From positions 558,001 to 622,000 of the forward strand of contig NZ_CP020562.1 of the NCBI RefSeq assembly GCF_002082565.1: a stretch of DNA of 64,000 bases. Reading direction: 5' to 3'. The stretch's first letter is position 1; every line of letters starts with the position of its first letter. The position numbers were made by a program, and so were the translations under genes. Positions 930 through 11,900 of the stretch are shown one piece after another. Source of the stretch: Halomonas sp. GT. Its GTDB lineage: Bacteria > Pseudomonadota > Gammaproteobacteria > Pseudomonadales > Halomonadaceae. The notes below the pieces were generated by a model that ran no database searches, had not been told where the DNA came from, and saw only the letters and a program-made list of their open reading frames with translations.

Positions 930-2147
930 TTAATTAACGCCATAACGCTTAAGCCACGCATCCTGTAGCGCCGTCATCCAGCTGGGGTGAGGTTCGGCCA
1001 GGGTATTGGAAAGTGCATCGGCGGGCAGAGCAGATGGGTGGCTTTCGCCTTGTTCGAAGAGCGCCTTGTCGTTTTCATCTAACCGACTGACTGCCAATAC
1101 GGTGCGATCGCCCCACATGCTAAGCGACTGCTTTTGGGCTTGGGCTTCAGGTGAGAGCAGAAAGTTGGCTAGTGCCATTGCGCCTGCTTTATGGGGAGAA
1201 TTATAGGGAATAGCGACAAAGTGAACGTTTCCTAGGGTGCCGCCTTCCAGCACGTAGCTGCGCACACTCTCTGGGAGTTCATACTCCATCACCGCGACGG
1301 CGGCATCTGTCGGGTAGAAGGAGAAGGCCACGCTGAGTTCACCATCGCTCATTAAAGTGCGAAGGTTAGGGCCTGATTCCGGGAAACTTCGGCCGCTGCG
1401 CCATAGGTATGGGTGTAACTCATCCAGATAATCCCACAATGGCGCAGTGATCTCCGCAAACTCCGCTTCAACCACTGGCGCATAAAGGGCGTCATCTTGA
1501 TTCGATAATTCAATTAACGCCTGTTTTAAAAAGGTGCTACCGGTGAAATCGGGAATACGTGGATAGCTGAATTGGCCAGGATTATCTTTGGCCCACTCCA
1601 GTAAATCCGCAATACTTTGCGGCGGCGTTTCAGTTTGAGCGCTGTCGTAGTAGAAAGTGATTTGTGCTTTTCCCCATGGAGACTCATAGCCTTCAGTAGG
1701 CAACGTAAAGTCGGTAACCACTTCTGGGTTTTCATCTGAGTGAGTCAAGGCGAAGTTAGGCAGGGATTCGGCAAAGGGGCCAAATAAGAGGTCCTGTTCG
1801 CGCATGGCGGCGAAGTTTTCGCCGTTAATCCAGATCAGGTCGATGCGGCCATCATCCATGTTACCAGCCTGCTTTTCACCCAGTACTCGAGCAACGGCAC
1901 TACCTGTGTCGTCTAACTTCACATGCTCTACATCGACGCCATACGTGGACTGCATTTGCTCGGACACCCAAGCGATATATCGGTTGGTGCGACTGTCACC
2001 GCCCCACGCGTTCCAGTAAATGGTTTGACCCTCGGCGGCTTGCAATACGGCATCCCAATCATTGGGATCTGGGGCAGCCATGGCGGGCAGCGCCAGTGAC
2101 AACATGGCAGTGGCGACAGCGGTCATTAGGGTGGCGCGTGGTTTCAT
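930..2147 (-). CDS. ynjB: YnjB-like ABC transporter substrate-binding protein
   Basis: A 405-residue periplasmic binding protein. Residues 1-24 form a signal peptide with an AMA cleavage site. The mature part opens with QTIYWNAWGGDSRTNRYI, the hallmark of the YnjB group of extracellular solute-binding proteins, and ends in KRYGVN. It should deliver a solute to the YnjC-like permease whose start touches its stop codon. The substrate of YnjBCD is not established; related clusters have been proposed to carry thiamine-like or other small cations, which I treat as a hypothesis only. The gene lies 24 bases downstream of a kinase-fold gene on the same strand, so the three are probably one transcript. 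Confidence 0.85.
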   Translation of the reverse strand: MKPRATLMTAVATAMLSLALPAMAAPDPNDWDAVLQAAEGQTIYWNAWGGDSRTNRYIAWVSEQMQSTYGVDVEHVKLDDTGSAVARVLGEKQAGNMDDGRIDLIWINGENFAAMREQDLLFGPFAESLPNFALTHSDENPEVVTDFTLPTEGYESPWGKAQITFYYDSAQTETPPQSIADLLEWAKDNPGQFSYPRIPDFTGSTFLKQALIELSNQDDALYAPVVEAEFAEITAPLWDYLDELHPYLWRSGRSFPESGPNLRTLMSDGELSVAFSFYPTDAAVAVMEYELPESVRSYVLEGGTLGNVHFVAIPYNSPHKAGAMALANFLLSPEAQAQKQSLSMWGDRTVLAVSRLDENDKALFEQGESHPSALPADALSNTLAEPHPSWMTALQDAWLKRYGVN

Positions 2148-2171
2148 CGTACACCTTTTAAAATCAGTTGG

Positions 2172-3206
2172 TTATAGAGATGCTTTTAGGTAGAGAAGTT
2201 CATTATGAACATGCTCAATAATCGGCAGTGATAAATAGTGCTCGACCCGGTCGCGAACATGGGCAATGACGTCAGCATCGGTGAGATCTGCTGACCAGTC
2301 CTGGCCACGGTGCGCGGCATCTTTACGTTGCAAATGCTGGGCACGCCACTTGGCGCACCATGTTAATGACCACAGCCAAGTGGCACGTCGGCAGGCAACC
2401 AGCGTTTCCGCGCTGGGTGATTTACCCACATGCGCTTGCCAACGCTGATAAAAAGCGACGACGTCTTCCAGAGTAAGCACTGCCTGGCTGTTAATGTCCC
2501 AGGTGGTCGAGGTGTAAAGCGAGGTGTGGGCAAGATCAATGCCCGGTAGGCCGTAGCGACACTTCTCTAAGTCCACCAGCATCGCGCTACCCTCTGCGGT
2601 GATCAAAAAGTTTCCAGGGTGGGTATCAAAGCTGATCAAGCAGCGCTCGGCATCGGGCAGCGTGGTGGGCAGAGCCTCCAGCTCATCGCGAACACGGGCA
2701 ATGATATCGGGTTCCAAGTCGGCCTTTTCCAGCCACTCGGACTGATGGCTAACTTCCTCACACATGGCTTGCCATGAGTCGGCAGGCGCCAGTAATGGTT
2801 GGGGATGCTCAGGTAGCGGTAAGCGGTGTAGGCTTGCCAGGGTCTCTGCGATACGTGGTAAATCCTGCGGTAGCTGTGCCAGCCGCCCTTCAATAGCATC
2901 GACCAGCAGCCCGCCACGCGGCAGGGCATCACTCACGGGCAAGATGCCATGCAAGCGGGGCACTTGGCCTCCCTGGCTGGCGCGTTCGTAGCACGCAGCT
3001 TCATATGCCAGGTTATCGGCAGGGGCTAGATTCATTTGGCTCTGTTTTGGCAGTCGTGCGACCCAATCATCGCCATCGCGATGTACCCATACATGATCGT
3101 GGGCAAGCCCAGTATCTGCCATCGGTGAAAGCGACTGGTAAGCGATCTCCGCCTGTTGCAGGGTGTTTTCCAGTGCCTGCAAACGCGCCGCTAATGGTGT
3201 TGGCAT
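2172..3206 (-). CDS. Phosphotransferase (APH/choline-kinase fold)
   Basis: A 344-residue protein with the aminoglycoside-phosphotransferase/small-molecule kinase fold. The catalytic-loop equivalent is FDTHPGNFLI (around residue 190) and the metal-binding segment that follows is LVDLEKCRYG, which together correspond to the HxDxxxxN and DxD/DFE elements of this superfamily, though with an offset Asp before the His. The family covers choline, thiamine, homoserine and antibiotic kinases, so the substrate cannot be read from sequence. Being first in a probable operon with YnjB and YnjC suggests it phosphorylates, and so traps, whatever that importer brings in; this is inference. Starts at ATG 3206, divergent from the Lrp-type regulator across 266 bases. 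Confidence 0.75.
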   Translation of the reverse strand: MPTPLAARLQALENTLQQAEIAYQSLSPMADTGLAHDHVWVHRDGDDWVARLPKQSQMNLAPADNLAYEAACYERASQGGQVPRLHGILPVSDALPRGGLLVDAIEGRLAQLPQDLPRIAETLASLHRLPLPEHPQPLLAPADSWQAMCEEVSHQSEWLEKADLEPDIIARVRDELEALPTTLPDAERCLISFDTHPGNFLITAEGSAMLVDLEKCRYGLPGIDLAHTSLYTSTTWDINSQAVLTLEDVVAFYQRWQAHVGKSPSAETLVACRRATWLWSLTWCAKWRAQHLQRKDAAHRGQDWSADLTDADVIAHVRDRVEHYLSLPIIEHVHNELLYLKASL

Positions 3207-3472: not shown

Positions 3473-3964
3473 ATGAAAAAAACTGCTATTGATGCCGCAG
3501 ATATCCGCATTCTTTGCGCATTACAACAACATGGCCCGCTCAGCAAAATGAAACTCTCCGAGCTGGTCAACCTGTCTCCAACACCCTGTTGGGTACGTTT
3601 TAACCGTTTAAAACAGGCAGGGCTTATACGTGGATACCACGCTGACATTGCACTTAATCAAATCGCGAACGCCTCGAAGGTGGTGGTGACCGTTTCTCTT
3701 AAGGAGCATCAAAAATCGGCGTTCGAGCGTTTTGAGCGTTACATCAATCAAGTAGATGAAATTATCGAGTGTATTGCCACGGGCGGAGGCATGGATTATG
3801 TGTTGAAAGTTGTGGCTCCAAGTTTAGATGCCTTTCAGCAAGTGATAGAGGGCCTGCTCGCCCCAGAGTTGGGAGTAGAACGTTATATGACGTATATCAC
3901 TACCAGAGAAGTAAAATCGACCCAGTTGAATCTCGCTTGTCTTATGACAAATAAAGGCCACTAA
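3473..3964 (+). CDS. Lrp/AsnC family transcriptional regulator
   Basis: A 163-residue protein of the usual Lrp length. The N-terminal winged helix-turn-helix spans about residues 7-55 (DAADIRILCALQQHGPLSK, then LSELVNLSPTPCWVRFNRLK), and the rest is a RAM/AsnC ligand-binding domain, including the ATGGGMDYVLKV strand and glycine turn. It lies just upstream of, and in the same direction as, the methyl-transfer operon starting at 4220 and is divergent from the kinase/YnjBC group, so it could control either. Lrp regulators normally respond to amino acids or similar small molecules. That it senses the substrate or product of the downstream pathway is inference. Confidence 0.9.
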   Translation: MKKTAIDAADIRILCALQQHGPLSKMKLSELVNLSPTPCWVRFNRLKQAGLIRGYHADIALNQIANASKVVVTVSLKEHQKSAFERFERYINQVDEIIECIATGGGMDYVLKVVAPSLDAFQQVIEGLLAPELGVERYMTYITTREVKSTQLNLACLMTNKGH

Positions 3965-4219
3965 GCAACACCGCTGGCCATTGGATGACGATTGTCTTTC
4001 CCGCTAACTCCCTATCCTCCTTACACCTAATCCTGCTAGATACGACGTGTGAAACTGACGGTATCCCTCTTACTGCCAAGCCATTAAAACTTGGTCTGTT
4101 CAGACTTCTTAAATCGTTTTTTTAGGCCGCGCCGTCACATCTTGTACCCCTATAGTGCATGTACTGAACGCCTAGTCGTTCGATTGACTATAAAACACTA
4201 CAAAAACAAGGTGGTTAGC

Positions 4220-5401
4220 ATGCCAAATACGACATTAAACAACGTGGTTGTTAGCATCAGTAAGGAAGACGATTTTGGCTTTGGTACACAGATTCGTAAG
4301 TCCCCTTACTTTGACGCAACTGTTCGCTGGGGGGCAACGGCGTTTTCGGTTTACAACCATATGTATATTCCACGTGCATTTGGCAACCCTGAGCAGAATT
4401 TTTGGAATTTAGTAAATGACGCCATTCTGTGTGATGTGGCTGCCGAGCGTCAGGTGGAAATTACCGGCCCAGATGCAGCGAAATTTGTGCAGCGTATGAC
4501 GCCACGTGACTTGTCCTCCATGGCGGTTGGGCAGTGTAAATACATCTTAATGACCAATGCTGAGGGCGGCATTCTGAATGATCCGATTTTACTTCGATTG
4601 GCAGAGAATCACTTCTGGATATCGTTAGCTGACAGCGACATTTTATTATGGGCGCAAGGGCTTGCTGTCAACTCAGAACTGAATGTGAGGATCAACGAAC
4701 CAGATGTCTCTCCTCTGCAGTTACAGGGGCCTCGCTCGGGTGACGTGATGAATGCGCTGTTTGGTGACAGCATCATGGATCTCCGCTATTTCTGGCTGCG
4801 CGAGGTTGAGCTGAACGGTATTCCGCTGATTGTTTCACGTACTGGCTGGTCAAGTGAGCTGGGCTACGAGCTCTATTTGCGTGATGGTTCACGAGGCGAT
4901 GAACTCTGGGAGACCATCATGGCAGCAGGGCGGCCCTTTGGTTTGCAGCCTGGTCATACGTCGTCAATCCGTCGCATCGAAGGTGGCATGCTCTCCTATC
5001 ATGCGGATGCGGACATGCACACTAACCCCTATGAACTGGGCATGGACCGCCTAGTGAATCTCGACATGGCTACCGACTTTATTGGCAAAGCAGCTTTGCA
5101 GCGTATCCAGGCGCAAGGCGTGAGCCGCAAGCAGGTTGGGCTATGGATTGATGCAGCTCCGCTGAAAGGCCCAAACACCACTTTCTGGTCGCTTGAACGC
5201 AATGGCGACGTCGTTGGCAAGGTAACCTCCGCTGTTTACTCCCCGCGCTTAGATCAGAATATTGCGCTGGCGATGGTGGCGGTTGAGTACGCCGACCTTG
5301 GAACTGAGCTAGACGTGTATACCGCTGTCGGTTCAGCTCGGGCCGTTGTTGTCGAGAAACCTTTCTTTGACCCCCAAAAGAAACTCGCCGTATCGGCATA
5401 A
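4220..5401 (+). CDS. DmdA/GcvT-like tetrahydrofolate-dependent methyltransferase (demethylase)
   Basis: From ATG 4220 the protein has 393 residues; AAGGTGG lies five bases upstream, and a longer frame back to 4091 has no support. It belongs to the folate-binding aminomethyltransferase (GcvT) superfamily and resembles the DMSP demethylase DmdA more than glycine-cleavage GcvT: the N-terminal VYNHMYIPRAF, then CDVAAERQVEITGPDA, MTPRDLSSM, GGILNDPI, FWISLADSD, NEPDVSPLQLQGP, RTGW, and RRIEGGMLSYHADAD. This class moves a methyl group from an S-, N- or O-methyl donor to THF, giving 5-methyl-THF. The next four genes are exactly those needed to oxidise 5-methyl-THF to formate. The substrate is unknown: DMSP, another sulfonio or betaine compound, or a methoxyl compound are possible. 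Cytoplasmic. Confidence 0.8.
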   Translation: MPNTTLNNVVVSISKEDDFGFGTQIRKSPYFDATVRWGATAFSVYNHMYIPRAFGNPEQNFWNLVNDAILCDVAAERQVEITGPDAAKFVQRMTPRDLSSMAVGQCKYILMTNAEGGILNDPILLRLAENHFWISLADSDILLWAQGLAVNSELNVRINEPDVSPLQLQGPRSGDVMNALFGDSIMDLRYFWLREVELNGIPLIVSRTGWSSELGYELYLRDGSRGDELWETIMAAGRPFGLQPGHTSSIRRIEGGMLSYHADADMHTNPYELGMDRLVNLDMATDFIGKAALQRIQAQGVSRKQVGLWIDAAPLKGPNTTFWSLERNGDVVGKVTSAVYSPRLDQNIALAMVAVEYADLGTELDVYTAVGSARAVVVEKPFFDPQKKLAVSA

Positions 5402-5463
5402 AAGTAAGCGTGGGGGCCGAAGGGCGGTTGCTTTCGTTCGCATAACAGCCACAGGAGCGCTTT

Positions 5464-5946
5464 ATGTATTCCATTCGTCGTTGGGTCGTACGCAACGCAA
5501 GATTTTTTGAGGTCGCTTACCGTCTGTTCGAACCAGTGGTCGTCACGTTAACGCCACTATGGAAATGGATGGGGTACCCGCGAGCAGAAAAAGCCGTTAG
5601 CAAGCTGGAAAAGGTCTCCAAGGAGTTGCTGTTCGACTGCAAGATGTGTGGCCAATGTGTCCTGAGTTCTACGGGTATGTCTTGCCCTATGAACTGCCCA
5701 AAAAACATGCGAAATGGCCCATGTGGTGGCGTCTTACAGAACGGGAACTGTGAAGTGCTTCCCGATAAGCGGTGTGTCTGGGTAGAAGCCTGGGAGGGCA
5801 GTCAGAGAATGCAAGCTGGTGGCCAGATACATGCTGTGCAGTTGCCGGTTGATCATCGTCTAAAGGGGAGCTCGTCTTGGCTGCGTGTGGCGCGACAGGC
5901 TGAGGAAAAAGCACCACATCATAAGCAAGGGGAGCGTAATGATTAA
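5464..5946 (+). CDS. MetV-like cysteine-rich protein (MTHFR C-terminal-type domain)
   Basis: A 160-residue protein preceded by AGGAG. Residues 59-104 carry eight cysteines (59, 62, 65, 74, 78, 87, 96, 104), beginning CKMCGQCVLSS and continuing through NMRNGPCGGV. This is the domain annotated as methylenetetrahydrofolate reductase C-terminal, the same family as the iron-sulfur/zinc subunit MetV that partners MetF in acetogens. The N-terminal 50 residues are hydrophobic and basic and may lie on a membrane or partner protein. The last codons overlap the start of metF by eight bases, which implies translational coupling and supports a physical MetV-MetF pair. Its likely role is to pass electrons to or from the MetF flavin; in this organism that is inference. 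Confidence 0.8.
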   Translation: MYSIRRWVVRNARFFEVAYRLFEPVVVTLTPLWKWMGYPRAEKAVSKLEKVSKELLFDCKMCGQCVLSSTGMSCPMNCPKNMRNGPCGGVLQNGNCEVLPDKRCVWVEAWEGSQRMQAGGQIHAVQLPVDHRLKGSSSWLRVARQAEEKAPHHKQGERND

Positions 5947-6973
5947 CCACGAGAGAGGCCATGATCGTTTAGTGGCAACACCAGCGGCATATAGCTCTGC
6001 CGGACGTCTGGAGCGTGTCTTAAAGGCTGGTTATTTTGCCGTTACCAGTGAGTTGGCTCCTCCCGATTCTGCGAATCCTGAAGACGTGTATATGCGAGCA
6101 AGAGTCTTTGATGGTTACGTAGACAGTTTAAATGCGACGGATGGTTCCGGTGCTAACTGCCATATGTCTAGCGTGGCAATGTGCGCGTTGTTATCACGTG
6201 TTGGCTACGACACGGTGATGCAGGTTTCCTGTCGAGATAGAAACCGCATCGCCATTCAAGGCGATGTATTAGGTGCCGCCGCATTGGGCGTCAACAATGT
6301 CCTATGTCTGACGGGAGATGGTGTACAGGTAGGCGACCATCCACAAGCAAAGCCGGTGTTTGACCTCGACTCGATGTCGCTATTAGAAGTCATCGCAGGG
6401 CTACGTGACAAAAAGATGTTTGTCAGCGGCCGTAAAATAAGCGACCCACCAAAGGTGTTTCTGGGGGCAGCTGAAAACCCATTTGTACCGCCACATGATT
6501 TTCGACCTTATCGATTGGCTAAAAAAATTGCTGCAGGGGCGCAGTTCATTCAAACGCAGTACTGTTTTGATCTACCTCGCTTTGCAACGTTTATGGCCCG
6601 CTCGCGAGACCTTGGGCTACTCGAAAAATGCTTTATTTTGCCTGGTGTTGGGCCGTTGGCATCGGCACGCACTGCCAACTGGATGCGACATCATGTACCG
6701 GGTGTGCATATTCCTGACGCCGTGATTAAACGGCTCGAAGGTGCACAGGATCAAAAGCATGAAGGGCGTCAGATATGTATCGAGATGATTCAGCAGTTAC
6801 GAGAGATACATGGCGTCAGCGGGGTCCATGTAATGGCCCATCGTCAGGAATCTGCAGTCGCCGACATTATTGAAAAATCCGGTGTATTACGTGATCGGCG
6901 GCCATGGTTTCCTGGGAGCGACCAGCGTCTTGATAAGCCTCATGAATTGCCAGTAGACCTCAATTTAGAGTGA
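5939..6973 (+). CDS. metF: Methylenetetrahydrofolate reductase (MetF)
   Basis: I choose ATG 5939, with a GGGGAG ribosome site a few bases upstream, over a longer frame from 5885; this gives 344 residues. The flavin-binding TIM barrel is recognisable: FAVTSELAPPDSANPE carries the catalytic Glu of the family's TxExxPP motif, LCLTGDGV the Asp near the flavin, and AAGAQFIQTQYCFD the strand that binds folate. The enzyme interconverts 5-methyl- and 5,10-methylene-THF. Next to a methyl-THF-forming demethylase and PurU, the oxidative direction is the likely one here, whereas biosynthetic MetF works reductively. It is therefore probably a second, catabolic copy; the biosynthetic one is not in this window. 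Confidence 0.88.
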   Translation: MINHERGHDRLVATPAAYSSAGRLERVLKAGYFAVTSELAPPDSANPEDVYMRARVFDGYVDSLNATDGSGANCHMSSVAMCALLSRVGYDTVMQVSCRDRNRIAIQGDVLGAAALGVNNVLCLTGDGVQVGDHPQAKPVFDLDSMSLLEVIAGLRDKKMFVSGRKISDPPKVFLGAAENPFVPPHDFRPYRLAKKIAAGAQFIQTQYCFDLPRFATFMARSRDLGLLEKCFILPGVGPLASARTANWMRHHVPGVHIPDAVIKRLEGAQDQKHEGRQICIEMIQQLREIHGVSGVHVMAHRQESAVADIIEKSGVLRDRRPWFPGSDQRLDKPHELPVDLNLE

Positions 6974-7086
6974 GGCGTACTTAACTGTTGAGCGATAGTG
7001 GCTAAATGCTTTTCGAGACAAACGCGTCGTTGTGGCGTGTCCAGACAACCCAGCATCTCATTATCTATTTGCATAGGCTTTCTGTT

Positions 7087-7962
7087 GTGACAAAAAATCT
7101 GGATCAAACAAATCACTTTGTCTTAACCGTCAGATGCGAAACGGGTCCGGGTATCGTCTCTGGTGTTACCTCATATCTAGCAGATCACGGTTGCAATATC
7201 GGCGAATTATCTCAGTTCGACGATAAAATTACCGGACAGTTTTTCATGCGCGCCGTGTTCAATATTCTGCCAAATTCCAGCGTCTCTTTTGCTCAAATAC
7301 AAGCAGGGTTTGTTGAGTTGGCCGACCGGCTTGGTTTGGACTGGCAGATGTACCAGGCCGATCAGCCCGCGCGGGTTTTGATAATGGTATCCCGCTTTGA
7401 TCACTGTCTACTCGATCTGCTTTATCGGCACCGTAAAGGTGAGCTGAATATCGAAATTACCGCAGTGGTATCGAACCATCTGGACCTGCGGCCCATCGCA
7501 GAGCGTGAAGGTATTCGTTTTATTTATATGCCTGTCACCAAAGAGAACAAACCGGCCCAAGAAGCTGAACTGATGAAGCTGGTTCATGAAACAGAAACCG
7601 AATTGGTGGTCCTGGCGCGTTACATGCAAATTCTATCTGACCAGCTGTGTCAGCAACTGCATGGGCGAGCCATTAATATTCATCACTCTTTTCTACCCGG
7701 TTTCAAGGGTGCCAAACCCTATCATCAGGCGTTTGATCGTGGGGTCAAACTGATCGGTGCCACGGCGCATTATGTGACCGCCGACCTAGATGAAGGCCCA
7801 ATAATCGAGCAATCTGTGCAGCCGGTTGATCACGCCTACTACCCAGAAGAGTTAGTGGCGCTAGGACGTGATACCGAAACGATGGCGCTGACACGTGCTG
7901 TAAAGCTTCACGCTGAGCGTCGCATTTTTCTCTCGGCTGACAAAACCGTGATTTTCAAATAG
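7087..7962 (+). CDS. purU: Formyltetrahydrofolate deformylase (PurU)
   Basis: Hydrolyses 10-formyl-THF to formate and THF. An N-terminal ACT domain ([21 protein letters not shown]) precedes a formyltransferase-fold domain with the catalytic Asn-His-Asp set in [11 protein letters not shown] and [10 protein letters not shown]. The frame is open from ATG 7006, but homology to PurU (about 285 residues) begins at residue 28 of that frame, so GTG 7087, giving 291 residues, is my preferred start; its ribosome site is weak and 7006 cannot be excluded. In this operon PurU would release the oxidised C1 unit as formate and regenerate free THF for the demethylase. Confidence 0.88.
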
Positions 7963-7978
7963 CAACAGTGAGCCCCCT

Positions 7979-8905
7979 ATGGCCCAGTTAATAGATGGTA
8001 AAGCGCTCTCCGCTAAGGTGTTGCAGCAAGTGGCCTCAGAGGTTGCGTCACTCAGCGCTGAACATGGCATTAAACCTATGCTGGCCGTGGTGCTGGTAGG
8101 TGAAGATCCGGCTAGCCAGATATACGTCAGAAATAAGATGAAGCGAGCGAGTGAGGTGGGCATCGGCTCAAGAGAGTATGTACTTGATGCTGGCATTACT
8201 CAGGATGAGCTAGCGCAGTTGATCGATGCTTTGAACAACGATGCTGATGTACATGGCATTCTGGTTCAGCTACCACTTCCCGCTCAGCTGGATGAAGATA
8301 CCGTTATCGAATCGGTCCATCCGGATAAGGATGTTGATGGGTTTCATCCGTTAAACGTCGGCGCGCTTGCTGCCGGAAGCGACACGGTGGTGCCATGTAC
8401 ACCACAGGGCTGCATGATCATGCTCCGCCAGATCCACTCAGATTTGAGCGGTAAACATGCGGTGGTGATCGGGCGCTCCAATATTGTCGGTAAGCCGATG
8501 GCCATGCTGCTTTTGCAAGCCAACTGTACGGTGACTATTGCCCATTCCCATACGCAGGGTATTGAATCCCTATGCCGCCAAGCCGATATCGTTATTGCAG
8601 CGGTTGGCTGTAGAGAGCTTGTTGATGCTGACTGGGTAAAGCCAGGCGCAACGGTGATTGATGTTGGTATTAATGCTATTGAGATTGATGGCACGCGCAA
8701 GCTCGTTGGCGATGTAGCCTTTGACGCGGTCTCCCAAGTTGCCGGTGCCATTTCGCCAGTGCCCGGTGGCGTGGGACCGATGACAATCGCTTGTCTGTTG
8801 CTGAACACCACGGGTGCCGTAAAACGTCAGCTACCGCGTACGTTTGATCTGGCGTCGGGTACTGTGAATAAACCAATAAGGAGTTACTGCTATGTCCGTT
8901 CATGA
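7979..8905 (+). CDS. folD: Methylene-THF dehydrogenase / methenyl-THF cyclohydrolase (FolD)
   Basis: A 308-residue bifunctional enzyme that oxidises 5,10-methylene-THF with NADP and opens the methenyl ring to 10-formyl-THF. Visible marks are [14 protein letters not shown] (the catalytic Tyr and Lys), [21 protein letters not shown], the Rossmann [14 protein letters not shown] and [13 protein letters not shown]. It is about 20 residues longer than usual; the tail overlaps the start of the following OsmC gene by 14 bases. It sits 16 bases after purU. Functionally it links MetF to PurU in the C1 oxidation route. Confidence 0.93.
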
Positions 8906-9353
8906 AGCCGCCGTTCACTGGCAGCACGCCCCTCACACAACTGACCCCAACACCTATTCGCGTAACCACCGTGTGAGTTTGAATGGCAACCAGCAGGTAG
9001 AGGTTTCCGCATCAGTTGAATTTAAAGGTGATGCCAATTGTGCCGACCCGGAGCAGATGCTGATTAGCGCCGTATCCAGTTGTCACATGCTGTTTTTCCT
9101 GGCCATTGCTGAAATGCAGGGCTTTAAGGTGGCGTCTTATCAGGATGATCCGAAAGGCTATCTGGAACGCAATGACAAAAAGGGGATGGCAATTACACGT
9201 ATTGAGCTATCACCACGCATCACTTTTAGCGGCGATAAAGCGCCCGATCAGAAAGCCATCGACAATATTCACAGCAAAGCCCACAGCAACTGCTTTATTC
9301 GTAACTCAGTCACCGCTGAGGTAACGATCAACTCGCTGCCACCTGCCGTTTGA
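8892..9353 (+). CDS. OsmC family protein
   Basis: A 153-residue OsmC/Ohr-fold protein. The two redox cysteines are in [11 protein letters not shown] (about residue 58) and [10 protein letters not shown], the expected spacing for a thiol-dependent peroxidase. A ribosome site AAGGAG sits inside the folD tail, and the genes overlap by 14 bases. Family members detoxify organic peroxides or handle reactive thiols. Within this operon it might protect the folate enzymes or deal with a reactive by-product such as a thiol, if the substrate carries sulfur; that is inference. YhfA-like OsmC proteins of unknown role are the alternative. Confidence 0.85.
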
Positions 9354-9377
9354 ATCAGTCATGTTCGTTGGGAGCCG

Positions 9378-10181
9378 ATGATGAATCATACGAACACCTC
9401 ACAAGACATTCTGATAAGGGAAGATAGGCAGGGCGCTGTTTATCTCACCTTAAATCGGCCAGAGAAGTTCAACACGCTTTCTGAAGCTATGCTCTCTGCG
9501 TTGCAACACGAGTTAGATGCCATTGCTGTTAATACTGCTGCACGCTGCGTCGTGATTGGAGGTAATGGGCGTGGATTTTGTGCTGGCCATGATCTAAAGG
9601 AAATGCGGTCGAATCCTGACCAAGCTTATTATCAAGCGCTGTTTCGCAATTGTAGTCGATTAATGCAGAGCGTTGTTGCACTGCCGATACCCGTGATTGC
9701 CAAAGTGCACGGCATGGCCACGGCGGCGGGGTGTCAGTTAGTGGCTAGCTGCGATCTGGCCATTGCTGGCCGTTCCGCAAGTTTTGCGGTGTCAGGTATT
9801 AACGTTGGACTGTTCTGCTCGACGCCTGCTGTGGCGTTATCGCGGTGCATACCTACCAAGAAAGCGTTCGATATGCTGATATCAGGAGAGTTTATTGATG
9901 CGAAGGCGGCGCTAGAGAAGGGGCTGGTGTCTGATATTTGTGAAGACGCTGAGTTAGACACGACTGTCGCCGCAAAGGTAGCTCAGATCCTAGCTAAAAG
10001 CCCAGCAGCAGTGCGTTATGGCAAGTCCATGTTTCATTCCCAGCGACAGATGGATTTAGCAGATGCTTATGACTTTGCTGGCAACGTAATGGCCGAAAAT
10101 ATGCTTAACCCAGATGCCCAAGAGGGAATAGACGCCTTCTTAAACAAGCGTAAACCCGTCTGGGGACAGCCTGGCCATTGA
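9378..10181 (+). CDS. Enoyl-CoA hydratase/isomerase-fold protein, ECHDC3-like
   Basis: A 267-residue crotonase-superfamily protein. The oxyanion-hole segments are present (GRGFCAGHDLKEM and GMATAAGCQLVAS), but the two glutamates used by true enoyl-CoA hydratases are replaced: Gln stands in AAGCQLV where GGCELA is usual, and FAVSGINVGLF replaces the second Glu motif. This pattern, with LFCSTPAVALSR, matches the ECHDC3-like branch, whose reaction is unclear. It lies directly before an acyl-CoA ligase gene and probably acts on that enzyme's CoA ester, perhaps as hydrolase, isomerase or lyase rather than as a hydratase. It is not a clear match for DmdD, which keeps the catalytic glutamates. Confidence 0.8.
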   Translation: MMNHTNTSQDILIREDRQGAVYLTLNRPEKFNTLSEAMLSALQHELDAIAVNTAARCVVIGGNGRGFCAGHDLKEMRSNPDQAYYQALFRNCSRLMQSVVALPIPVIAKVHGMATAAGCQLVASCDLAIAGRSASFAVSGINVGLFCSTPAVALSRCIPTKKAFDMLISGEFIDAKAALEKGLVSDICEDAELDTTVAAKVAQILAKSPAAVRYGKSMFHSQRQMDLADAYDFAGNVMAENMLNPDAQEGIDAFLNKRKPVWGQPGH

Positions 10182-10265
10182 ACGATTAGTGCTGAGGGTG
10201 AGAGGCGTCGCGTTGGCTGTAGAGCCAAGTGATGAGCGGTTGCTAACAATAAAAGGGATAAGACT

Positions 10266-11900
10266 ATGAGTGATATTTGCTATTTTAATCAAGTGCTTGA
10301 GAAAAATGCGGCGAATCATGCCGCGCTGTCACCGTTGAGCTTTATCCGTCGAGCGGCAACTGTCTACCCTGATCGTACAGCGCTAATCTATAACGAGAGC
10401 CACTATAGCTGGCGCGAAACGTATGCTCGCTGCTGTCAACTGGCATCACTGTTGACCCGCCTAGGCATCTCTAAAGGCGATACGGTAGCGGTAATGCTGC
10501 CTAATGTCCCCGCCATGTATGAAGCGCATTTTGGTGTGCCGATGGTGGGAGCCGTATTGAATGCGATCAATACCCGCTTGGATCCAGAAGCAATTGCCTT
10601 TATTTTGGATCATAGCCGCTCGCGTCTTTTACTTGTAGACCCAGAGTACACGGACGTGGTCGAGAAGGCCTTAGCCCAGTTGGAAGGGCCTACGCCACAG
10701 GTGATCAATGTCTCGGACCCGAGCCAGGGCACAGAGCGGTGGATTGGTGAATTTGAATATGAAGTGTTGCTAGCCAACCAGTATCTGTGGGACGACTGGC
10801 AGCTACCCGATGACGAATGGGATGCCATTGCGCTGGGGTATACCTCGGGCACCACCGGCAATCCCAAAGGGGTGGTTAGCCATCATCGTGGAGCTTATCT
10901 GAATGCCGTTAGCAACGTACTTTCCTGGACGCTACCCGCTAACGTGACCTACCTGTGGACACTGCCGATGTTTCATTGCAATGGCTGGTGCTTCCCATGG
11001 ACACTGGCCGCCATTGGTGGCACCAGTGTCTGTTTGCGCAGAGTGGATCCCGAGCACATCCTGGCGCTGATCAAAGAGCAGCGTGTTACTCATTACTGTG
11101 GGGCACCCATTGTACACACTATGATTGCCGATGCTGCTATGGCACGCGGAGCGCCGATTGAGCATAAAGTTTATGGGCTGATTGCCGGTGCCGCGCCACC
11201 TGCCTCTGTGCTAGAGCGGATGGAGAAAATTGGCATCGAACTCACCCATGTTTACGGGCTAACAGAGACCTACGGCCCGGCGTCGGTGTGCGTCAAGCAG
11301 AATGACTGGGCTCAACACTCACTGGAAGAGCGAGTACGGCTCAATGGCCGTCAAGGCGTCGCTTACCCGCTTCAGGAAGATATGGCGGTGCTCGACTCGG
11401 AAACACTGATACCCGTTCCCGCAGATGGCAAAACGGTCGGCGAAATTATGTTTCGCGGAAATATCGTCATGAAGGGGTATTTGCGCAATGAAATTGCCAC
11501 CCGCGAAGCGTTTGCTGGTGGCTGGTTTCATTCAGGCGATCTGGCCGTTATGGAGCCGGACGGCTATATCAAAATCCGCGATCGATTAAAGGACGTCATT
11601 ATCTCAGGGGGAGAAAATATTTCCTCCCTTGAAGTAGAAGATATTGTGCAACGTCACCCCGACGTCGAGCTTGCTGCGGTTGTTGCCATGGCAGATGAAA
11701 AGTGGGGGGAGGTACCTGCTGCCTTCGTTCAACTACGTTCTGGCAGTGTGCTTAGCGAAAGCGCTCTGATCCGTTTTTGTCGCGAGCAAATCACTCATTA
11801 CAAAGCGCCTAAAAAAATCATCTTTGGGCAGCTACCCACCACGGCAACCGGCAAAATTCAGAAATTTCAGCTGCGACAGCAGCTTGAAAAAACCTATTAG
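10266..11900 (+). CDS. Acyl-CoA synthetase (AMP-forming), DmdB-like size and family
   Basis: A 544-residue ANL-superfamily ligase. The phosphate-binding loop YTSGTTGNPKGVV is near residue 192, then the acyl-site region LPMFHCNGWCFPW, the A5 motif THVYGLTETYGP, GGWFHSGDLAV with the ATP-ribose Asp, and the C-terminal catalytic Lys in TATGKIQKFQLR. It activates a carboxylic acid to its CoA thioester with ATP. Length and family agree with medium-chain and methylmercaptopropionate ligases (DmdB), but sequence alone does not fix the acid. An 84-base gap separates it from the crotonase gene, so it is probably the last gene of the operon. It is followed by convergent genes. Confidence 0.85.
   Translation: MSDICYFNQVLEKNAANHAALSPLSFIRRAATVYPDRTALIYNESHYSWRETYARCCQLASLLTRLGISKGDTVAVMLPNVPAMYEAHFGVPMVGAVLNAINTRLDPEAIAFILDHSRSRLLLVDPEYTDVVEKALAQLEGPTPQVINVSDPSQGTERWIGEFEYEVLLANQYLWDDWQLPDDEWDAIALGYTSGTTGNPKGVVSHHRGAYLNAVSNVLSWTLPANVTYLWTLPMFHCNGWCFPWTLAAIGGTSVCLRRVDPEHILALIKEQRVTHYCGAPIVHTMIADAAMARGAPIEHKVYGLIAGAAPPASVLERMEKIGIELTHVYGLTETYGPASVCVKQNDWAQHSLEERVRLNGRQGVAYPLQEDMAVLDSETLIPVPADGKTVGEIMFRGNIVMKGYLRNEIATREAFAGGWFHSGDLAVMEPDGYIKIRDRLKDVIISGGENISSLEVEDIVQRHPDVELAAVVAMADEKWGEVPAAFVQLRSGSVLSESALIRFCREQITHYKAPKKIIFGQLPTTATGKIQKFQLRQQLEKTY

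Follow-up and report, generated by a model that had tools for sequence, protein, structure and literature searches.

The window analysed here, a stretch of 64,000 nucleotides corresponding to positions 558001-622000 of the complete 4.16-Mb genome of Halomonas sp. GT, contains an operon of nine genes which lie, all on the + strand, between positions 3473 and 11900 in the order Lrp, DMT, MetV, MetF, PurU, FolD, OsmC, ECH and ACS. We use DMT for the DmdA/GcvT-like methyltransferase, ECH for the crotonase and ACS for the acyl-CoA ligase, while clade 1 designates the window-type methyltransferases, that is, the clade to which DMT itself belongs. As far as our searches show, the operon is an uncharacterised variant of the DmdA-type route, equipped with its own one-carbon oxidation, its own ligase and a non-hydratase crotonase. 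Its genes are the following (THF stands for tetrahydrofolate):

3473-3964, + strand: Lrp/AsnC-family protein, probable local regulator; Pfam AsnC_trans_reg and HTH_24; conserved near DMT
4220-5401, + strand: DMT, DmdA-like THF-dependent methyltransferase of 393 amino acids; domains GCV_T and GCV_T_C; 374.9 bits with the DmdA model NF009133 (cut-off 410); best solved-structure match 3tfh; clade of its own
5464-5946, + strand: MetV-like protein, DUF5981, methylene-THF reductase C-terminal type; Pfam PF12225, no match in NCBIfam
5939-6973, + strand: methylene-THF reductase of MetF type, of which the genome has two; Pfam MTHFR
7006-7962, + strand: PurU, formyl-THF deformylase; TIGR00655, 321.7 bits (cut-off 285.95)
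7979-8905, + strand: FolD, methylene-THF dehydrogenase/cyclohydrolase; NF010785, 436.3 bits (cut-off 396)
8892-9353, + strand: OsmC-family protein, both redox cysteines (Cys64 and Cys134) kept; Pfam OsmC
9378-10181, + strand: ECH, crotonase of PRK08139/ECHDC3 type, without both hydratase glutamates; NF006008, 402.6 bits (cut-off 313)
10266-11900, + strand: ACS, acyl-CoA ligase of subfamily PRK08162, not a DmdB equivalog; NF006020, 882.1 bits (cut-off 677)

The identity, order and strand of the genes it named had been recognised correctly by an earlier, sequence-only reading of this DNA, as had two of the overlaps between them: metV and metF share 8 bases (MetV stop at 5946, MetF ATG at 5939), folD and osmC 14 bases (FolD end at 8905, OsmC start at 8892). 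The same reading did not mention the Lrp/AsnC gene, which opens its range and is part of the operon unit. DMT starts with the ATG at 4220; initiation at a TTG further upstream would yield a protein of 436 residues, and the 18 closest Halomonadaceae matches align from query residues 1-15. The true start of PurU may lie some 30 codons downstream of 7006, because alignment with the deformylase models sets in at residue 35-39. Scans of the operon for promoters and terminators gave nothing clearly exceeding shuffled sequence.

The notion that MetV, MetF, PurU and FolD form a set leading one-carbon units to formate agrees with the protein models, which place MetF-, FolD- and PurU-type genes together: PurU and FolD exceed their curated cut-offs and MetF is recognised by Pfam only. 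Elsewhere, the genome holds second members of four of the operon's gene types: a higher-scoring MetF (MTHFR) gene at G000:C1:65700-66512, a PurU-like gene (49% identical) whose neighbour is a GCV_T protein in a frame of 1063 codons, a PRK08139 crotonase at C1:3910484 and a PRK08162 ligase at C1:983466; because of these additional genes, the copies in the operon look dedicated to it. A separate GCV_T gene at C1:2001713 outscores DMT.

Distribution of the operon among proteobacteria

We examined the 80 top-ranking loci from named genomes, all with DMT, and counted the 58 whose flanks extend 1.5 kb or more upstream and 5 kb or more downstream, leaving out 22 loci with short flanks; genes were counted within 10 kb of DMT. 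In the 13 gammaproteobacterial loci, PurU and FolD are found 12 times each, MetV 11 times, Lrp 10 times and MetF, OsmC, ECH and ACS 9 times each, together with a dihydrolipoyl-dehydrogenase-like gene in 8. The 45 alphaproteobacterial loci have Lrp in 43 cases, OsmC in 35, ECH in 34 and ACS in 32, with MetV, MetF and PurU in 3 each and FolD in 2; one of them (L061) presents all nine gene types. Identity to the window proteins in alphaproteobacteria is 73-82% for DMT and about 35-54% for OsmC, ECH and ACS. Clade 1 is present in 18 of 201 Halomonadaceae genomes (E <= 1e-200) and in 48 of 295 genomes of the family of Ruegeria pomeroyi (E < 1e-150); the gene order, whose conservation the sequence-only reading had made a touchstone of its proposal, is indeed kept, with a wider spread in Rhodobacteraceae than in Halomonadaceae. 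Some loci retain DMT without OsmC, ECH and ACS (L091, L094, L097, L105 and L115), while OsmC is absent from others that have ECH and ACS (L081, L087, L090 and L111, as well as L200 and L201). Found again in dozens of genomes, the operon is a mobile and conserved unit, very probably with a role in catabolic demethylation. Searches of an open literature library, at the level of titles and abstract openings, listed no description of its gene set.

The genome G145, which has no clade-1 DMT, carries OsmC, ECH and ACS together with a dihydrolipoyl-dehydrogenase-like gene (L293: 5476-11779). A member of the genus of the window (G188) has an Lrp-DMT-OsmC-ACS cluster of alphaproteobacterial type (L147: 8060-12034), with neither ECH nor one-carbon genes nearby, which is possibly a separate horizontal gain. 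Ruegeria marina (G503) possesses the clade-1 gene in four copies of equal score, a case of either recent amplification or assembly duplication, and its contigs L049, L050 and L051 each show OsmC, ECH and ACS after the copy.

A methyltransferase related to DmdA and GcvT

Judged by scores, tree and alignment, DMT is neither a GcvT nor a DmdA, and belongs to a clade of its own next to DmdA. The DmdA model is the best curated model for this protein, with a score under its cut-off, and the best-matching solved structure is also that of DmdA. Other models are much more distant from their cut-offs: 173 bits for GcvT (300), 67.7 for LigM (580), 76.7 for DesA (800) and 226.4 for trimethylamine N-oxide (TMAO) demethylase (1100), the last match covering only model positions 386-759. 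In five Rhodobacteraceae genomes, DmdA scores 631-712 bits with NF009133 whereas the window-type gene of the same genomes scores 366-379; across the 295 genomes of the family of R. pomeroyi, 135 rows exceed the cut-off with 420-705 bits, and the highest listed row below it has 386.4 bits.

In a phylogenetic tree of 58 rows, the DMT of the window, the closest named relatives of which are from Vreelandella/Halomonas, falls within its own clade of 30 rows (support 100/99), and DmdA (6 rows) forms a separate clade with the same support, while rows of GcvT, sarcosine-oxidase and TMAO-demethylase type remain outside. The sister of clade 1 is DmdA together with the paralogs L124 and L133, by a joining branch that is not firm (86/82). 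Placement inside ordinary GcvT, the outcome which the sequence-only reading had regarded as fatal to its proposal, is thus contradicted by score as well as by tree. The alignment shows an Asn-Asp motif in clade 1 and DmdA and Asp-Asp in two GcvT rows; moreover, comparison of 29 clade-1 rows with 6 DmdA rows, of which one is partial, yields 36 positions at which each group is invariant and the two differ. In its passages on non-DmdA clades, PMC7487153 discusses them without a tested function; the paper also names the residue W171, which we matched by spacing to W197 of 3tfh; this Trp does not discriminate, because clade 1 has it too.

How does the operon compare with known demethylation systems? 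With GcvT, DMT has its domains in common, while differing in the Asn-Asp motif and in falling below the cut-off. LigM is grouped with THF oxidation genes, and the operon resembles the LigM/DesA O-demethylases in this association of a GcvT-like demethylase with one-carbon-THF genes; unlike them, it has no aromatic genes, and DMT lies far below both cut-offs. The TMAO demethylase of Methylocella type is matched in its GcvT-like part, but DMT lacks the full two-part protein and occupies a separate branch. With DmdA and the DmdABCD system there are several features in common: the same domains and folate motif, a predicted transfer of methyl to THF followed by a CoA ligase and a crotonase, and SBP56 genes linked in some relatives. 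The differences are the clade and sub-threshold score of DMT, a ligase which is not DmdB, an ECH without the two glutamates and the presence in the operon of its own one-carbon oxidation genes, OsmC and Lrp.

A second DmdA-like clade of Halomonadaceae, about 52% identical, is represented in G181 (L153: 160-9349) beside MetF-like, formate-THF-ligase-like and FAD-dehydrogenase-like genes and a regulator, a neighbourhood that looks betaine-related when judged by eye from first residues. Glu213 and Arg251 are common to this clade and clade 1, and not to DmdA.

Crotonase, ligase and OsmC protein

At the two positions where hydratases have glutamate, all 59 rows of the ECH alignment (the window and 58 loci) carry Gln120 and Gly140; Glu occupies both sites in a pair of more distant crotonases taken from the retrieved loci. 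DmdD keeps the two catalytic glutamates (PMC5395565), and the earlier remark that the crotonase is not DmdD-like is thereby substantiated. Because both residues are missing, the alignment indicates that ECH cannot use the mechanism of DmdD or act as an ordinary hydratase; a substrate without a double bond to hydrate, for example methylthioacetyl-CoA, is thinkable. The glutamate loss is a trait of the PRK08139 family and not of the operon, since Gln and Gly also stand in the genome's generic PRK08139 crotonase (L196). ECH shares with the ECHDC3/PRK08139 crotonases a score over the PRK08139 cut-off, and its second-best match in the PDB is the human ECHDC3 structure 2vx2.

In evolutionary terms, the ECH of the window groups with gammaproteobacterial PRK08139 copies (27 rows at support 100, one of them alphaproteobacterial), and not with the alphaproteobacterial operon ECHs. 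A single clade of all operon crotonases is rejected by the approximately unbiased (AU) test with p 0.0013, or 0.00057 without L200 and L201, for 39 rows chosen from 76; the p-values are somewhat generous, as the groups were defined after the identities had been seen. This choice left out L270 and L271, which were labelled generic and yet fell among operon crotonases, L270 lying about 9 kb from a clade-1 gene. Since the operon crotonases are not one clade, the association of ECH with DMT apparently arose on more than one occasion.

With the DmdB model NF005426, ACS scores 310.3 bits (cut-off 822). OsmC has Cys64 in 60 of 61 aligned rows and Cys134 in all 61, and may be auxiliary, since there are loci with ECH and ACS that lack it; PADLOC gave no matches for OsmC or ECH. 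No DmdC dehydrogenase is encoded among the genes at 3473-11900, as the sequence-only reading had observed, while a protein of 596 amino acids encoded elsewhere, near the second PRK08162 ligase, is acyl-CoA-dehydrogenase-like in appearance (no NCBIfam match at E <= 1e-50) and was not examined as DmdC.

These data bear upon the idea that the operon is a second route for the demethylation of dimethylsulfoniopropionate (DMSP), in which DMT would act on DMSP, ACS would form the CoA thioester of methylmercaptopropionate (MMPA-CoA) and a dehydrogenase from elsewhere would complete the pathway with ECH. DmdA is the nearest characterised relative of DMT, 15 of the 48 clade-1 genomes in the family of R. 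pomeroyi have no DmdA, and the 596-residue protein could be the dehydrogenase in question. We consider this route unlikely nonetheless: it would be redundant in the other 33 of the 48 genomes, which do carry DmdA, and it fits poorly with an ACS far under the DmdB cut-off, an ECH deprived of the glutamates kept by DmdD and the 36 clade-specific positions of DMT.

Another explanation separates the two halves of the operon: DMT would collect methyl groups, supplying one-carbon units for methionine and purines, and OsmC-ECH-ACS would be an unrelated fatty-acid or stress module travelling along. Such a separation is seen in G145, where the module stands beside the Lpd-like gene in a genome without clade-1 DMT, and conversely in the five loci that keep DMT without the module. 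It becomes quite improbable, in our judgement, when one considers that ECH has apparently been paired with DMT more than once, that ACS overlaps DMT in L201 and that PurU spends the one-carbon unit as formate rather than retaining it.

The earlier proposal, that the operon serves the catabolic demethylation of a methylated acid which may not be DMSP, finds support in the own clade of DMT, the scores below the DmdA, DmdB and GcvT cut-offs, the second, divergent MetF, the conserved gene set and the crotonase without glutamates. Our analysis extends it with a linkage to SBP56 that points to a sulfur substrate, a wide alphaproteobacterial distribution and apparently separate origins of the operon crotonases.

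SBP56 linkage and the nature of the substrate

The SBP56 family includes MtoX, with shown methanethiol oxidase activity (PMC5739008), and human SELENBP1, for which the same activity has been shown. We studied its linkage in the 295 genomes of the family of R. pomeroyi, 101 of which have SBP56; relatedness is ignored in the statistics. Of the 48 clade-1 genomes, 10 have SBP56 no more than 5 kb from the clade-1 gene, in every case at 3.8 kb or less and in 8 of the 10 on the same strand. The corresponding counts are 2 of 135 for DmdA genes over the cut-off (4 of 135 within 10 kb) and 0 of 26 for other DmdA-like paralogs. Fisher's test of 10/48 versus 2/135 gives 3e-5, while random placement of some 40 SBP56 genes would be expected to give about 0.13 cases. 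The linkage is found in 4 of the 5 members of a divergent branch of clade 1 (61-64% identical to the window). By genome, SBP56 accompanies clade 1 in 34/48 versus 67/247 cases (2e-8) and DmdA, itself known to give rise to methanethiol, in 76/125 versus 25/170 (1e-16), while clade 1 and DmdA themselves co-occur (33/48 versus 92/247, 9e-5); part of the first association may be due to DmdA.

The layouts are diverse. L203 and L204 read Lrp-DMT-OsmC-ECH-ACS-SBP56-219aa; L201, of the divergent branch, reads SBP56-ferredoxin-CoA binding-rhodanese-ECH-ACS-DMT, with genes overlapping or at most about 40 bp apart and ACS overlapping DMT; L200 has SBP56-ferredoxin-CoA binding-ECH-ACS-DMT and L199 SBP56-ferredoxin-CoA binding-rhodanese-DMT, the small genes being assigned by Pfam in L201 and by similar first residues in the other layouts. 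Given two SBP56 types and several layouts, there has probably been more than one event of linkage between SBP56 and DMT. In G273 (L207: 7579-10750), a true DmdA, over the cut-off, has SBP56 and the 219-residue gene downstream of it, after a gap of 73 bp. This protein of about 219 amino acids, without Pfam match (L108: 15544-16203), repeatedly follows SBP56, also in L059, L113, L165, L204, L205, L206, L207 and L213. The copies near DMT, assigned to the family by Pfam, appear to represent other SBP56 branches, for which methanethiol oxidation may be presumed by analogy with SELENBP1 and MtoX.

Such a linkage hints at a sulfur substrate for the operon. The reading that we prefer, and consider evenly poised between right and wrong, is that the operon demethylates a dimethylsulfonio carboxylate different from DMSP and degrades it in a CoA-dependent manner, with release of methanethiol. 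DMT would transfer one methyl from the sulfonium to THF, leaving 5-methyl-THF and a methylthio acid; MetV/MetF, FolD and PurU would convert 5-methyl-THF into formate and free THF; ACS would turn the methylthio acid into methylthio-acyl-CoA; and ECH, perhaps with OsmC, would act on the thioester in such a way that methanethiol is set free. Some relatives would then oxidise the methanethiol with an enzyme of the SBP56 family; in the organism of the window it must go elsewhere, because the genome has no SBP56. From the observed gene content, families, clade, linkage, missing glutamates and intact OsmC cysteines we infer all these reactions, as well as the sulfur nature of the substrate and the order of the ACS and ECH steps.

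Several points weigh against this predicted pathway. Lacking in the genome of the window, SBP56 had to be rejected as proof of methanethiol oxidation in that organism; in Halomonadaceae it occurs in 6 of 201 genomes (4 over 550 bits), all six among the 47 with some DmdA-like gene, and in 3 of the 18 with clade 1. It adjoins the clade-1 gene in only 10 of the 48 genomes, and lies within 10 kb in 4 of the 58 named loci (L059, L099, L108 and L113). Without the divergent branch, linkage falls to 6/43, with p values of 0.003 versus DmdA and 0.08 versus the 26 paralogs. That the DMT-linked SBP56 is MtoX proper does not hold for L099, the sole copy run, which has 160.5 bits with the MtoX model NF052453 (cut-off 650). 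DmdA (3tfh) and others are long branches in the DMT tree, and their joins may be false. Finally, a single operon clade is not rejected for ACS (p 0.18 and 0.20) in a test run without L287, L291 and L292, the first being part of an OsmC-ECH-ACS module without DMT.

A further difficulty concerns G504, which we take to be the genome of R. pomeroyi DSS-3: at E <= 1e-60 it has no clade-1 gene, while DmdA and a 42%-identical paralog are present. The paralog is by ABC-transporter-like genes and 5.7 kb from a pair of SBP56 and 219-residue genes (L213: 1137-2537 and 8243-9346), so that SBP56 neighbours are not unique to clade 1. According to Gebser et al., strain DSS-3 releases methanethiol from dimethylsulfonioacetate, DmdA is cited as not accepting this compound and mention is made of an unrecognised pathway. 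With no clade-1 gene in G504, the argument from DSS-3 for dimethylsulfonioacetate as the substrate of the operon is rejected as evidence, and the 42% paralog, rather than clade 1, becomes a candidate for the activity of that strain. Because this argument fell, we rank no sulfonium acid first.

The substrate could instead be an ammonium betaine, for example beta-alanine betaine or one of carnitine or proline type: DMT would remove an N-methyl, the remainder would be CoA-activated and then split by ECH, and SBP56 would do general sulfur or redox work. BCCT genes, found near DMT in 5 of the 13 gammaproteobacterial and 2 of the 45 alphaproteobacterial loci, fit ammonium betaines equally well, and the BCCT of L059, the sole one run, best matches the glycine-betaine BCCT model, with 519.7 bits, under the cut-off of 650. 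The 52% clade, with its betaine-like surroundings and the Glu213 and Arg251 that it shares with clade 1, points in the same direction. We judge a betaine somewhat unlikely, as SBP56, and in L201 also rhodanese, are within the same operon, SBP56 is otherwise associated with DmdA genomes and the tree puts clade 1 with DmdA and not with the 52% clade, albeit with a support of only 86/82.

As to how methanethiol would leave in the sulfonium pathway that we favour, DpgC, a cofactor-free crotonase oxygenase, offers a speculative model which we hold to be very improbable. By oxygen or substitution chemistry at the alpha carbon, ECH might free methanethiol from a methylthio-acyl-CoA such as the methylthioacetyl-CoA derived from dimethylsulfonioacetate, and OsmC, a homologue of organic hydroperoxide reductases with intact cysteines, might reduce the resulting hydroperoxide. 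If true, this would be a new demethiolation route and a first function for ECHDC3-type crotonases.

Should the sulfonium pathway itself be correct, many bacteria of marine environments and saline lakes would carry it for sulfonium osmolytes beside the DMSP route, and it would be a further, overlooked source of methanethiol. Automatic annotation is likely to label the DMT gene as DmdA or GcvT. The operon is a gene set to test against the class of compounds of Gebser et al., and may give context to the ECHDC3/PRK08139 family.

Adjoining the operon on the - strand, at 930-3206, are genes for an ABC substrate-binding protein (PRK11622) and an APH-family kinase, which are kept in two close relatives (L036 and L037).

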